In this document: positions 2,075 to 6,957 of the stretch, piece after piece
How the letters are laid out: every line of letters starts with the position of its first letter
Position numbering within the stretch: position 1 is the stretch's first letter
Source of the DNA: Deltaproteobacteria bacterium
Lineage (GTDB): Bacteria > JAUYMQ01
NCBI GenBank assembly: GCA_030698575.1
Contig: JAUYMQ010000239.1
Location: 1-6,957 of the forward strand
Length of the DNA: 6,957 bases
Direction of reading: 5' to 3'
Notes under the pieces: model-generated
What the model saw: only the letters and a program-made list of their open reading frames with translations
Told to the model about the DNA's origin: nothing
Databases searched by the model: none
Translations under genes and position numbers: made by a program

Positions 2075-5038
2075 ATGAGGCCCATGGGTGACGATCGATC
2101 GCCGCAGCGGGGAATCGACCGGCGCGAGTTCCTGAAGGCCGCCGGCGCCGCGGGTTTGTCTCTCGCCCTGCTCCGTCTGGAGATCGGCTCGGCCCGCGCC
2201 GGAGCGGACGCTTCGGGGGCTGCAAACGCCGGTCCCGCCTACGAATCCTGGGAAGACATCTACCGGAACGAGTGGCGCTGGGACGCGGTTCACTGGGGCT
2301 CGCACACAAACCAATGCGCCCCGGGTGGTTGCTCTTTCCGCGTCTATTCGCGCGACGGTATCGTGTGGCGTGAGGAACAGGCGGCGCGCTCCGGCCAATC
2401 GAACCCCGCCTATCCCGACTACAACCCACAGGGCTGCCAGAAGGGCTGCGGCTTCCACCACCTGCTCAGCAGCCCGGAGCGCGTGCGCTACCCCCTGAGA
2501 CGCACGGGCGAGCGGGGCGAGGGGAAGTGGAAGCGCATCAGCTGGGACGAGGCGCTCACCGAGATCGCCGACGCCATCCTCGACGCCCACGAGAGCCACG
2601 GCACCGAGAGCTTCGTCATCGACGCCCCGCACATCCACGCGGGGACCGTGGCGCTCTCCGGCGCCGGCCGGCTCGTGCGCATCCTCAATGGGGTCATGCC
2701 GGATCTCAACGTCGCGATCGGCGACGATCTGAAGGGCCTGCTGCAGACCTTCGGGAAGATGCATCAGGGCTACACGGCCGACAATTTCTTCGACGCCGAG
2801 CTGATCATTCTCACGCAGACCAATCCCTCCTACACCTGGCCCTCGAGCTATCACTTCATGACCGAGGCGCGGTACAACGGCAGCGAGATCGTGCTGCTGG
2901 CGCCCGACTACAACGCGTCGGCGGTCATGGCTGACGTGCACCTCCCGCTGCGCGTCGGTACCGACGCGGCCTTCTGGTTGGGGGTCTGCCAGACGATCGT
3001 CGCCGAGGATCTTCACCAGCCCGACTTCATGCGGGAGCAGACCGATCTCGCGCTGCTCGTTCGAAAGGACACCGGTCGCTATCTGCGCGCTACAGAGGTC
3101 GACGGGGGGAGGGAAGATCAGCTCTATTTCCACGATCTCGCTTCAGACCGCATTGTCGAGGCGCCCCGGGGAACCTTGAAGTTCGACGGCGAGCAGGCCC
3201 TCGCCGGGACCTACGTCGCGAAGCTCTCTGACGGCAGCGAGGTCGAGGTGACGCCGGCCTTCACGCTGCTGCGCGAAAAGCTCGACCGCGAGCACACTCC
3301 CGAGCAGGCTTCGAAGATCTGCGGCATCCACCCGGACGTGATCCGCTCGCTTGCCCGCAAGGTGGCGAGCAAGCGCACCTGCAGCTTCATCGGGTTCAGC
3401 TCGGCCAAGCACTACCACGGCGATCTGATGGAGCGCGGCCTGCTGCTGGCGATGGGGCTGACCGGAAACTGGGGGAAGCCGGGCACGGGCTTCAACTGCT
3501 TCCTCATCCCCGACACGGGCTTCAAGCTTCTCTCCGCCATGGATGCGCCCACCGACCGACTTGGCATCCTGCGGCTCGCGGCGCCGGAATATGCGAAGAC
3601 CCTCATGATGAAGCTCAAGGACTGGACCATCACCGAAGAGCTGATGAGCATGGAGATCGAGTCGCAGGTCGGGCGCGATGCCGGCTCGATCCTTCCGGTT
3701 TACTTCCTGTACCACCATGCGGGCTACGATCAGCTCTGGAACCGCGCAGACTGGGACGACCCGGCCCTCGATCGGACCTTCGGGGAGTACCTCGATGAGT
3801 CGGTGCGGCGCGGCTACTGGGACCGGCAGCAGACCGGCCCGGGACCGGAAGAGCCGCCCCAGGTGCTGATGCTGATGGCGCACAACCCGCTTCGAAGGCA
3901 GCGAAGCGGCCGCCAGATGTACGTCGAGAACCTCTTCCCCAAGCTGAAGATGCTCTTCGCCATCGAGACCCGCATGTCCTCGTCGGCGATGTACTGCGAT
4001 ATCGTCCTGCCCGCCGCCTGGTACTACGAGAAGGCCGACATGACCCTGACCTTCGGCCTGAACCCCTTTACCTGCCTCATCGAGCAGGCAGTGAAGCCGC
4101 AAGGCGAGGCCAGGCCCGAGTGGGAGATCATGACGGCGCTGATGAGCAAGATCGGTGAGCGCGCCGCGAAGCGGGGCATGACGACCTTCAGGGACCGGAA
4201 GGGAAAGACCCGGCGCTACGCGGATCTCCACGACCGGTTCACGATGGGATCCCGCATCACCAATCACGAGGAGGCGGTGCGGGAGCTGGTTTGCATCTCG
4301 GAAGCCACCGGGGTGTTTCCCAAGGGGTACAACTACGAGAAGCTGCGCGAGGACGGACAGGTTCGCTTCAGCGGGCTCGGGAAGGGCTATGCGGCGCAGG
4401 CCGCCGCGAACGACGTCGACATCGGGAGGCCGTTCTACTCCCTCCGGTGGCACGTGGAGGACAAGCGCATATACCCGACCTACGCGCGACGGGCGCAGTT
4501 CTACATCGATCACGAATGGTTCATGGAAGCCGGCGAGGCGCTGCCGACGCACAAGGAAACGCCTCCGATCGGCGGCGTCCATCCGTTCAGGCTGGTCAGC
4601 GGGCATAGTCGAAACAGCGTTCACACGCTTCACGCCGCCACGCCCCACTTCCTCCGGCTGCATCGCGGGCAGCCGGTGCTCTTCCTGAACGACCGGGTGG
4701 CCGCGGAGCGGGGGATCGCCGACGGCGAGATGGTGCGCATGTACAACGACGTCGACGACGTGGAGATCATGGTCTCGACCTCCGCCGCCGTCGGTCCGGA
4801 CCAGGTCGTCATCTACATGTGGGAGCCCTTCCAGTTCAAGGGCCTGAAGTCGCACGACGCGATGCTGGTCGGCACGCCCAAATCGATCCAGCTCGCGGGC
4901 GACTACGGCCAGCTGCGCTACCAGATCACCTCCGGCTCACCCTCGCCCTCGAACGACCGGGGTTTGCGCGTGAACATCGCCAGGCTCGGAGCGGCGGGGT
5001 CGCTCTCGCCGGCCGGCGGAGCCCGGAGTCAGGCATGA
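2075..5038 (+). CDS. Type II DMSO-reductase-family molybdopterin oxidoreductase, catalytic alpha subunit (ethylbenzene/steroid C25 dehydrogenase-like)
   Basis: A 987-residue Mo-bis-MGD enzyme subunit, probably periplasmic. It begins with a Tat signal: DRREFLK with Arg16-Arg17, then a hydrophobic stretch to about residue 43. Next comes an FS0 [4Fe-4S] site with His77, Cys81, Cys86 and Cys121; Cys81 and Cys86 are four residues apart, where NarG has three. The molybdopterin domain follows (about 140-780), with IGDDL giving Asp217 as likely Mo ligand, then the dinucleotide-binding domain (about 835-955, starting HPFRLVSGHSRNSVHT). His186 lies 31 residues before Asp217 and Lys445 lies 228 after it. 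This closely matches His192, Asp223 and Lys450 of ethylbenzene dehydrogenase as I remember that numbering. Length also fits that enzyme better than the shorter selenate, chlorate and dimethylsulfide enzymes. The likely role is oxygen-independent hydroxylation of a C-H bond using water; substrate unknown. It is first gene of an alpha-beta-gamma operon behind a sigma-54 promoter. Family is near certain; dehydrogenase direction is moderately supported. Confidence 0.93.
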   Translation: MRPMGDDRSPQRGIDRREFLKAAGAAGLSLALLRLEIGSARAGADASGAANAGPAYESWEDIYRNEWRWDAVHWGSHTNQCAPGGCSFRVYSRDGIVWREEQAARSGQSNPAYPDYNPQGCQKGCGFHHLLSSPERVRYPLRRTGERGEGKWKRISWDEALTEIADAILDAHESHGTESFVIDAPHIHAGTVALSGAGRLVRILNGVMPDLNVAIGDDLKGLLQTFGKMHQGYTADNFFDAELIILTQTNPSYTWPSSYHFMTEARYNGSEIVLLAPDYNASAVMADVHLPLRVGTDAAFWLGVCQTIVAEDLHQPDFMREQTDLALLVRKDTGRYLRATEVDGGREDQLYFHDLASDRIVEAPRGTLKFDGEQALAGTYVAKLSDGSEVEVTPAFTLLREKLDREHTPEQASKICGIHPDVIRSLARKVASKRTCSFIGFSSAKHYHGDLMERGLLLAMGLTGNWGKPGTGFNCFLIPDTGFKLLSAMDAPTDRLGILRLAAPEYAKTLMMKLKDWTITEELMSMEIESQVGRDAGSILPVYFLYHHAGYDQLWNRADWDDPALDRTFGEYLDESVRRGYWDRQQTGPGPEEPPQVLMLMAHNPLRRQRSGRQMYVENLFPKLKMLFAIETRMSSSAMYCDIVLPAAWYYEKADMTLTFGLNPFTCLIEQAVKPQGEARPEWEIMTALMSKIGERAAKRGMTTFRDRKGKTRRYADLHDRFTMGSRITNHEEAVRELVCISEATGVFPKGYNYEKLREDGQVRFSGLGKGYAAQAAANDVDIGRPFYSLRWHVEDKRIYPTYARRAQFYIDHEWFMEAGEALPTHKETPPIGGVHPFRLVSGHSRNSVHTLHAATPHFLRLHRGQPVLFLNDRVAAERGIADGEMVRMYNDVDDVEIMVSTSAAVGPDQVVIYMWEPFQFKGLKSHDAMLVGTPKSIQLAGDYGQLRYQITSGSPSPSNDRGLRVNIARLGAAGSLSPAGGARSQA
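5025..5028 (+). promoter_or_regulatory. Ribosome binding site and ATGA coupling for the beta subunit
   Basis: GGAG (5025-5028) lies 6 nt before the ATG at 5035, whose last bases overlap the alpha stop (ATGA, 5035-5038). This sets the beta start at 5035 although the frame stays open back to 4819. The overlap implies coupled translation and stoichiometric production of alpha and beta. Confidence 0.8.
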
Positions 5039-6078
5039 GCGCCACGATTCCAAGCAAGCAGCAGCTCAAATCGTGCAAGCGCCAGCTTGCAACGGTGATC
5101 GATCTCAACAAGTGCATGGGCTGCCAGACCTGCAGCGTGGCCTGCAAGAACATCTGGACGCAGCGCGAAGGGACCGAGCACATGCGCTGGGCCAGCGTGG
5201 CGACCTGCCCGGGCAGCGGCTATCCGCGTGACTGGGAGAAGAAGGGCGGCGGGTTCGACGCCGAGGGTCGCCCCCGCGCCGGCCAGCTGACGACGATGGT
5301 CGACTGCGGCGACAGCTTCCAGTTCAACCACGAGGAGGCGCTGTCTCCCGGCGCCAGCGGCGGACGGCGGCTCGAACCCCGCTCGCTTCAGGGCGGCGCC
5401 CCGACCTGGGGCTACAACTGGGACGAGGATCAGGGGAAGGGCGAGTGGCCGAACCCGTACTTCTTCTACATGCCGCGCAAGTGCAACCACTGCACCAACG
5501 CGCCCTGCATCGACGCCTGCTCGCGCAACGCCATTTTCAAGCGCGAGGACGGGATCGTGGTGATCGATCAGGACCGGTGCGCGGGCCACCGTCATTGCAT
5601 CGAGGCTTGCCCCTACTCGATGATCTTCTTCAACCCCGTCACGCAGAAGAGCGAGAAGTGCATCGACTGCTTTCCGCGCGTCGAGCAGGGCATCGCGCCG
5701 GCCTGCAACCGCCAGTGCGTCGGGCGAACGCGCGCGTACGGCTATCTCGACGACCCTGAAAGCCAGGTGCACAAGCTGGTGCGCAAATGGAAGGTGGCCG
5801 TGCCGCTGCATCCAGAGTACGGCACCGAGCCCAACGTCTACTACGTGCCGCCGATGTCGCCGCTCTCCTTCGACGGCGAAGGAAAGCTCACCGAGGCCGG
5901 GCGGATTCCGATTGCCGCGCTCGAGCGGTACTTCGGCCCCGCCGTGCGGAGCGCGCTCGGCACGCTCGTGGAGGAGCGGAAGCGGCGGCAGCGAGGAGAG
6001 CCCTCGGAGCTGATGGATCTCCTGATCAGCCGGCGATGGAGTGACCGTTTCGCGGAGTTCACCCGCGAGCCGGTTTGA
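5035..6078 (+). CDS. Molybdoenzyme iron-sulfur beta subunit (four Fe-S clusters)
   Basis: A 347-residue electron-transfer subunit of the NarH/EbdB/SerB type. It shows four cysteine groups. Group I is Cys27, 30, 33, 37. Group II is Cys150, 153, 158, 162. Group III is Cys182, 188, 192, with His185 where a fourth Cys would be. Group IV is Cys209, 212, 224, 228. In this family groups exchange ligands between the two halves and the group lacking one Cys holds a [3Fe-4S] cluster, so three [4Fe-4S] and one [3Fe-4S] are expected. The long loop between groups I and II (38-149) carries GYPRDWEKKGGG and WGYNWDEDQG, and the tail has WKVAVPLHPEYGTEPNVYYVPP, all typical of the type II family. It has no signal peptide, as expected for a subunit exported with the Tat-tagged alpha partner. 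It would pass electrons from FS0 of alpha to heme of gamma. The start is chosen by the ATGA overlap and GGAG. Family call is very sure. Confidence 0.95.
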   Translation: MSATIPSKQQLKSCKRQLATVIDLNKCMGCQTCSVACKNIWTQREGTEHMRWASVATCPGSGYPRDWEKKGGGFDAEGRPRAGQLTTMVDCGDSFQFNHEEALSPGASGGRRLEPRSLQGGAPTWGYNWDEDQGKGEWPNPYFFYMPRKCNHCTNAPCIDACSRNAIFKREDGIVVIDQDRCAGHRHCIEACPYSMIFFNPVTQKSEKCIDCFPRVEQGIAPACNRQCVGRTRAYGYLDDPESQVHKLVRKWKVAVPLHPEYGTEPNVYYVPPMSPLSFDGEGKLTEAGRIPIAALERYFGPAVRSALGTLVEERKRRQRGEPSELMDLLISRRWSDRFAEFTREPV

Positions 6079-6130
6079 CGCCCAGGGCCCCGGCCCCTGA
6101 CAGTCGGGTAGGGCGGGATGAGGTAGCTTC

Positions 6131-6781
6131 ATGATGCGGATTCATCGTGTGGCGGTGAGTAACGCGGCGCTTCTCGAGATCGACGGGCCGGTCTGGTCGG
6201 TTCTCACGTCGCAAAGCGTCGCGCTCTCTCCATCGCCGGTGGCGATGGTGGCGGCCGTGTCTCCCCTGATGGCCCTCAGCACGAAGCACGGGAAGGTGAA
6301 GGGCTTGTCGGCGCGGATGGCGCATAACGGTGTGACCCTCAACGTGCGCATCTCGTGGGAGGACCCGGACAAGGACGATCGGATCGAGGATCTTGATCGC
6401 TTCGTGGACGCCGCGGCGGTCCTGTTCCCGCTGGGCGAGGACGCGAACCCCTTCACGATGGGCGACGACCGCAACCCCGTGAACGCCTGGTTCTGGAAGG
6501 CCGATCGGGAGGAGCCCTTCGACGTGATTGCGCGGGGCTACAGCACGAGCCAGCGGCGGCCGGGCGGCGCGAGCGGCCTGGTCGTGCGGGCCGAGCACCG
6601 GCAGGGCGCCTGGGTCGTCGTGTTCCAGCGCCCGCTCCGGCCTGCACCCGGCGAGTTCACACACTTCGAGCCCGGCGCCACGGCGCGCGTTGCGTTCGCG
6701 GTCTGGGAGGGAAACAATGCGGATCGGGGCGGCCAGAAGGCGGTTTCGGGCGCCTTCCTCGATCTGAAGATCGATTCCTAG
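6131..6781 (+). CDS. Heme b gamma subunit, ethylbenzene-dehydrogenase type
   Basis: A 216-residue subunit resembling the ethylbenzene dehydrogenase/DdhC/SerC/ClrC heme-binding family, a beta-sandwich protein holding one heme b with Met and Lys axial ligands. Visible hallmarks are ISWEDPDKDD (74-83), the FTMGDDRNPVNAWFWKAD segment with Met110 as probable ligand, and ADRGGQKAVSGAF with Lys203 as the probable second ligand. Length is close to the 23-kDa gamma subunit of ethylbenzene dehydrogenase. The family-like sequence begins near residue 15 (EIDGPVWS), and no signal peptide precedes it. An in-frame TGA at 6119-6121 with no start codon before 6131 excludes a longer form, so it probably travels with alpha and beta. 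Two adjacent ATGs (6131, 6134) exist; AGGT at 6121-6124 gives a modest ribosome site. It follows beta after 52 bp and ends in TAG. Role: last redox centre, handing electrons to an external acceptor such as a cytochrome c. Family call is sure. Confidence 0.9.
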   Translation: MMRIHRVAVSNAALLEIDGPVWSVLTSQSVALSPSPVAMVAAVSPLMALSTKHGKVKGLSARMAHNGVTLNVRISWEDPDKDDRIEDLDRFVDAAAVLFPLGEDANPFTMGDDRNPVNAWFWKADREEPFDVIARGYSTSQRRPGGASGLVVRAEHRQGAWVVVFQRPLRPAPGEFTHFEPGATARVAFAVWEGNNADRGGQKAVSGAFLDLKIDS

Positions 6782-6838: not shown

Positions 6839-6957
6839 ATGGGCAGCCCGGGCAGGAAGGAAATTCGCTACTGGAACATTCTCCAGCCGTTGCCGGCGCC
6901 CATCCTGATCGAGCTGGCGAAGCAGGCCGAGGCTCAGGGGATCCACGGAAGCTTCGC
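6839..6957 (+). CDS. Probable luciferase-like (LLM class) flavin-dependent oxidoreductase, 5' fragment
   Basis: Only the first 39 codons are inside the window, and the gene runs off the right edge. The N-terminus contains RYWNILQPLPAP followed by an amphipathic helix LIELAKQAEAQGIHGSF. This resembles the first strand and helix of LLM-class TIM-barrel oxidoreductases, where an early strand enters the flavin site and a helix with AE..G precedes the next strand. Members reduce or oxygenate substrates with FMN or F420. The gene lies 57 bp after the gamma stop on the same strand with its own good ribosome site, so it may be the fourth gene of the operon. A TorD-like chaperone was the other expectation at this position, but the visible residues do not suggest one. 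With so little sequence the call is moderate. Confidence 0.55.
   Translation, partial: MGSPGRKEIRYWNILQPLPAPILIELAKQAEAQGIHGSF

Follow-up and report, generated by a model that had tools for sequence, protein, structure and literature searches.

The stretch of DNA analysed here (the window; 6,957 nucleotides) is the complete contig C330 of a 4.13-Mb assembly, which comprises 653 contigs and is 91.6% complete. The following features were found in the window.

1-675: ferritin-like gene, weakly AurF-like; 3' part, truncated by the contig start
758..1567, plus strand: alpha/beta hydrolase, PcaD-like, scoring under the equivalog cut-off
1584-1845: intergenic repeat
2075..5038, plus strand: alpha, 987 aa, Mo-bisMGD catalytic subunit, predicted to be Tat-exported, sister of EbdA
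5035..6078, plus strand: beta, 347 aa, EbdB-like, ferredoxin-like electron wire with four clusters and 15 Cys
6131..6781, plus strand: gamma, 216 aa, heme b subunit of the EB_dh family (PF09459), EbdC-like
6840..6957, plus strand: LLM flavin oxidoreductase, luciferase-like; first 39 residues, the gene being truncated by the contig end

A preliminary description had assigned alpha, beta and gamma, with sizes of 987/347/216, to an enzyme of the type II DMSO-reductase family, and the open reading frames are present as described. The ATG of beta overlaps the stop codon of alpha, and the LLM flavin oxidoreductase gene starts 59 bases 3' of gamma. No gene for a delta chaperone, a feature of the EbdA operon, was found after gamma within the contig. 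The ferritin-like gene contains an in-frame TAG at 88-90, where its relatives have a coding residue, and this may be a true nonsense change or an assembly error. When we compared the alpha/beta hydrolase with the hydrolase preceding L017, the identity was 30%, and orthology of the two was rejected. In the intergenic repeat, positioned between the two upstream genes and alpha, TGTCATTGCGAGGC-type units occur together with an inverted repeat of 45 nt. This region forms a hairpin and folds far better than its shuffles (z -7.0), and its core 10-mer occurs once more among the other contigs examined, in L013.

The best solved matches of alpha, beta and gamma were the three chains of ethylbenzene dehydrogenase (EBDH), namely 2IVF_A (E = 0), 2IVF_B (E 2e-155) and 2IVF_C (E 3e-49). 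With such E values, the resemblance of the sequences to EBDH is not a matter of chance. Alpha is 52% identical to EbdA across 954 residues. The EBDH equivalogs were also the top NCBIfam models for all three subunits, each scoring below its curated cut-off. Against the EbdA equivalog NF042978 (cut-off 2000), the alpha subunit reached 1262.9 bits, whereas five canonical EBDH alphas scored 2012-2269 bits and all reached the cut-off. L210, L212, L016 (1295 bits) and L017 stay under it like the window alpha, and a Pro192-type sequence (L018) and an S25DH-like alpha scored 861 and 649 bits, respectively. Alpha also falls short of TIGR03479 (971 bits; cut-off 984.75), as do several undoubted relatives, and beta passes TIGR03478. 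The operon contains the gene set of an EBDH-like alkyl hydroxylase, with a Mo-bisMGD alpha, a four-cluster beta and a heme b gamma.

We then modelled alpha with AlphaFold2 from a 25-row alignment. The mean pLDDT was 84.4, and the low-confidence stretches include the FS0-loop residues 80-83 and 122-125. The top solved match in Foldseek was 2IVF_A (TM 0.90/0.97), and this chain was also ranked first by VIA-align, with a Z of 57.6 over 907 residues at 1.9 Å, followed by perchlorate reductase PcrA (Z 50.3) and NarG (Z about 37). Fold and sequence cannot establish function, substrate or direction.

In the alignment, His186, Asp217 and Lys445 of alpha correspond column for column to His192, Asp223 and Lys450 of EbdA, so that the EbdA numbering given in the preliminary description was correct. 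A position of His186 and Lys445 away from the active site had been named there as an argument against a hydroxylase; both residues fall on EbdA His192 and Lys450. The three columns were kept in 8/8 close orthologues added later. Asp217 is common to all 63 alignment rows, among them NarG and ClrA, and most rows, again with ClrA among them, have Lys445; only His186 is therefore discriminating. The earlier reading, C-H hydroxylation rather than oxyanion reduction, is supported, with the His as the one discriminating residue. The His within [AGS]PH[VIL]HAG was found only in nine rows of the 63-row alignment, all of the EBDH clade, and again in each of the eight orthologues added later; the S25DH-type, Pro192-type, ClrA and NarG rows all lack this motif. 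It has been reported that S25DH lacks the active-site His (PMC6153880) and that AhyA-type sequences have Pro at position 192 (PMC7803848). As far as the aligned sequences tell, the active-site His is a marker of the EBDH clade, not of hydroxylases in general.

The remaining cofactor ligands and the export signal listed in the preliminary description were recovered as well. Across 25 aligned relatives there is no variation at the FS0 ligands H77, C81, C86 and C121 or at D217 and K445. Between C81 and C86, four residues are present in the subclade of the window alpha compared with five in EBDH, and Trp87 is therefore absent; Phe476 stands at the position of EbdA Trp481. Trp87, Phe446 and Trp481 presumably line the EBDH substrate pocket, and a literature search for pocket roles of these three residues found nothing. 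The four cluster motifs of beta contain 15 Cys, every one of which is shared with EbdB. Met110 and Lys203 of gamma align with Met108 and Lys201 of EbdC and are invariant among six gammas. The EBDH heme is reported to be ligated by Met and Lys (PMC8840923), and Met110 and Lys203 of gamma are likely the axial heme ligands. A twin-arginine motif, DRREFLK, lies close to the N-terminus of alpha, though the Pfam TAT model scored 19.4 bits, slightly below its cut-off of 22.7. Since no signal peptide is apparent in gamma, this subunit is likely exported together with alpha.

To place alpha, we built a quick tree (63 sequences) and two careful ones (32 and 27 sequences). The references from Aromatoleum aromaticum EbN1 were EbdA (100% identical to 2IVF) and EbdA2, and those on the steroid side were the eight alphas of one genome, in which the pattern of identities corresponds to that of the set published for Sterolibacterium denitrificans (PMC6016249, PMC7411048). 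A tblastn search of plasmids for named references found ClrA and NarG and no hydroxylase; the trees cover these two reductases, and PcrA, SerA, DdhA, CmdA and AhyA were left out. The window alpha was placed in one clade with EbdA and EbdA2, with a support of 100 in the 63-sequence tree and 100/100 in the careful trees, while ClrA, NarG and the haloarchaeal rows branched outside. Clustering of alpha with reductases, which the preliminary description had set as evidence against its reading, was thus not seen, and alpha stands with hydroxylases rather than with the reductase references ClrA and NarG. A reductase or a DMS dehydrogenase of the type II DMSO-reductase family (SerA, ClrA, PcrA, DdhA) would have the superfamily and the subunit plan in common with the window enzyme, and DMS dehydrogenase is a member of this family too. 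However, alpha is only 31% identical to ClrA and lies apart from ClrA, NarG and the haloarchaeal rows in trees that do not include SerA and DdhA, and the predicted structure fits PcrA and NarG less well than EBDH. We regard this reading as very improbable.

Within the EBDH clade, the window alpha, eight orthologues, L017 and L016 form a sister subclade to canonical EBDH with a support of 95/93. The eight orthologues show 63-75% identity to the window alpha and come from one phylum (8/377 genomes), and L017 (56%) and L016 (55%) are two proteobacterial MAG sequences. The core of nine, consisting of the window alpha and its eight close orthologues, has a support of 100/99. In the AU test, a tree with L016 and L017 on the EBDH side was not rejected (p 0.085), which leaves only the core of nine firm and the inner boundary of the subclade less certain. 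A clade neighbouring the EBDH clade contains Pro192 sequences.

The window enzyme might be a true ethylbenzene/propylbenzene dehydrogenase, that is, a remote orthologue of EbdA/EbdA2 with the same substrate. This would agree with the single, fully supported clade, with the shared His motif, and with an SCP2-type thiolase that is encoded near ebdA2 in EbN1 and also near orthologues of the window operon. On the contrary, the 52% identity of alpha to EbdA is far from the 76-87% found among canonical EBDH alphas, which reach the EbdA cut-off that the window alpha, L210, L212, L016 and L017 miss. In addition, Trp87 is missing, and 71 columns that are fixed in EBDH are changed in the sister subclade. 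Finally, no 6-oxocyclohexenecarbonyl-CoA hydrolase (Oah) of the benzoyl-CoA pathway was found above the cut-off (107 vs 464 bits) in the 91.6%-complete assembly, which makes growth on alkylbenzenes via benzoyl-CoA less likely, though still conceivable with an assembly that is incomplete. A true EbdA is, in our judgement, unlikely.

When we examined the orthologous loci, nitroreductase, thiolase and acyl-CoA ligase genes were found to run directly into alpha-beta-gamma in L214, an acyl-CoA ligase precedes alpha in L213, and in L212 the ligase, thiolase, nitroreductase and an LLM gene are all close to the operon. The other orthologous loci lack the ligase/thiolase/nitroreductase set, and the genome of the window itself contains no close copy of the CoA ligase (best 37%), so the link to this gene set is partial. 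The 39-residue LLM fragment is 57% identical (35 aligned residues) to a Bac_luciferase protein near the L212 operon and 51% identical to the product of a gene in L029 that immediately follows a Pro192-type alpha. The latter bears on whether the window encodes a hydroxylase of n-alkane methylene carbons, like the proposed AhyABC. Besides this shared LLM flavoprotein, such an enzyme would fit with the neighbouring clade of sequences that have Pro192, the residue reported for AhyA (PMC7803848). However, this position is occupied by His instead of Pro in the window alpha, which falls outside the Pro192 clade, and we consider an alkane hydroxylase of this kind improbable.

Some further observations were made at these loci. 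In L154 (13022-15444), an orthologous alpha-beta pair has no adjoining gamma, and the next gene is instead a radical SAM/SPASM gene. A protein without a Pfam match is encoded directly 3' of gamma in L209 (12035-12811) and L212 (6336-7112), with 83% identity between the two, and a mere C-terminal remnant of it follows gamma in L211. In the genome of L034 (G076, MAG OFTM73), the EbdA model has 25 hits with E < 1e-100, an unusual expansion.

The host genome groups with deltaproteobacterial-grade MAGs by rpoB, and no 16S rRNA was found in the assembly. It carries four further EBDH/S25DH-like alphas: C145, on the S25DH side and with its own delta; C102a and C54, both on the DH8 side; and the truncated C102b. 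NarG/NXR-like complexes are encoded on contigs C514 and C235, and TorD-like matches in the genome were found only on C145 and C514. On C102 (L010, G000:C102), the DH8-side alpha adjoins an APH-type kinase gene, and the second, divergent alpha is truncated by the contig end. Anaerobic degradation of sterol side chains includes a kinase step (PMC8449060), which the pairing of this alpha with a kinase gene recalls. With an S25DH-clade alpha and two DH8-side alphas in the same genome, one of them by the kinase gene, the window enzyme could itself, like S25DH, S26DH or DH8, be a hydroxylase of steroid or isoprenoid side chains. Alpha is, however, only 32-38% identical to the eight Sterolibacterium-type alphas and lies outside the S25DH, S26DH and DH8 clades, and its active-site His is lacking in S25DH. 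This assignment appears quite improbable, and the sterol side chain, which stood in the earlier list of substrates beside an alkylbenzene, a terpene such as p-cymene, or something not yet described, becomes less likely because alpha lies outside these clades. We judged p-cymene solely via the literature, in which DH8 is linked to CmdA (PMC6016249).

We suggest that the window very probably encodes an EBDH-type molybdenum hydroxylase composed of alpha, beta and gamma, located in the periplasm and catalysing O2-independent C-H hydroxylation. It most likely works like EBDH without necessarily being EbdA itself. The order of the genes, the cofactor ligands, the exact match of the active-site columns, the place in the trees and the predicted fold were shown directly, and from homology to EBDH we infer the reaction, its direction and the cellular location of the enzyme. 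The complex would be exported in the folded state by Tat. At the Mo-bisMGD site, Asp217 would ligate Mo and be held by Lys445, Mo(VI)=O would activate a C-H bond of an alkyl side chain, and His186 could act as a proton relay. Rebound of OH would then give the alcohol, with its oxygen derived from water, and two electrons would pass from FS0 through the four beta clusters and the gamma heme b to a high-potential acceptor, e.g. cytochrome c. The CoA ligase and thiolase beside some orthologous operons suggest that the alcohol goes to a beta-oxidation-like cleavage. Against an EBDH-type enzyme speak the EbdA score under the cut-off, the loss of Trp87 and Trp481, and the absence of a close CoA ligase from the genome.

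EBDH-like enzymes need no oxygen to activate inert C-H bonds, and to our knowledge few of their substrates are known. The sister branch keeps the catalytic His and alters the FS0 loop, and its pocket is probably altered too. We see an even chance that the enzymes of the sister subclade are specialised in hydroxylating a substrate unlike those of the characterised members, e.g. a bigger or longer alkyl-substituted compound, and that the subclade is tied in several uncultured genomes to a CoA-ligase/thiolase pathway with nitroreductase-like and luciferase-like flavoproteins. With this branch, it can be tested directly which residues determine the choice of substrate, and the range of true EBDH-type genes now reaches beyond denitrifying betaproteobacteria to uncultured bacteria from further lineages.

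Compared with known systems, the window enzyme shares the family, the Asp ligand and the alpha-beta plan with PcrA (4YDD) and ClrA, but identity is about 30%, the reaction of these enzymes is oxyanion reduction, and ClrA belongs to a different clade, PcrA being compared by fold only. The plan of a type II alkyl hydroxylase is shared with the steroid C25/C26 dehydrogenases of Sterolibacterium denitrificans, which differ in forming separate clades at about 32-38% identity and in lacking the active-site His. It is shared also with AhyABC, the proposed alkane C2-methylene hydroxylase of Desulfococcus oleovorans, although AhyA, known here by description, has Pro at 192 (PMC7803848) where the window alpha has His186. 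EbdABC (2IVF) and EbdA2 of Aromatoleum aromaticum EbN1 are closest. The window alpha differs from EbdA in its 52% identity, its lack of Trp87 in an FS0 loop one residue shorter, Phe in place of Trp481 and a score under the equivalog cut-off, and the operon differs in its flanking genes and in having no delta (ebdD) directly 3' of gamma. Nevertheless, the two systems are alike in subunit order, in cluster and heme ligands, in His/Asp/Lys at Mo, and in clade and fold (Z 57.6).
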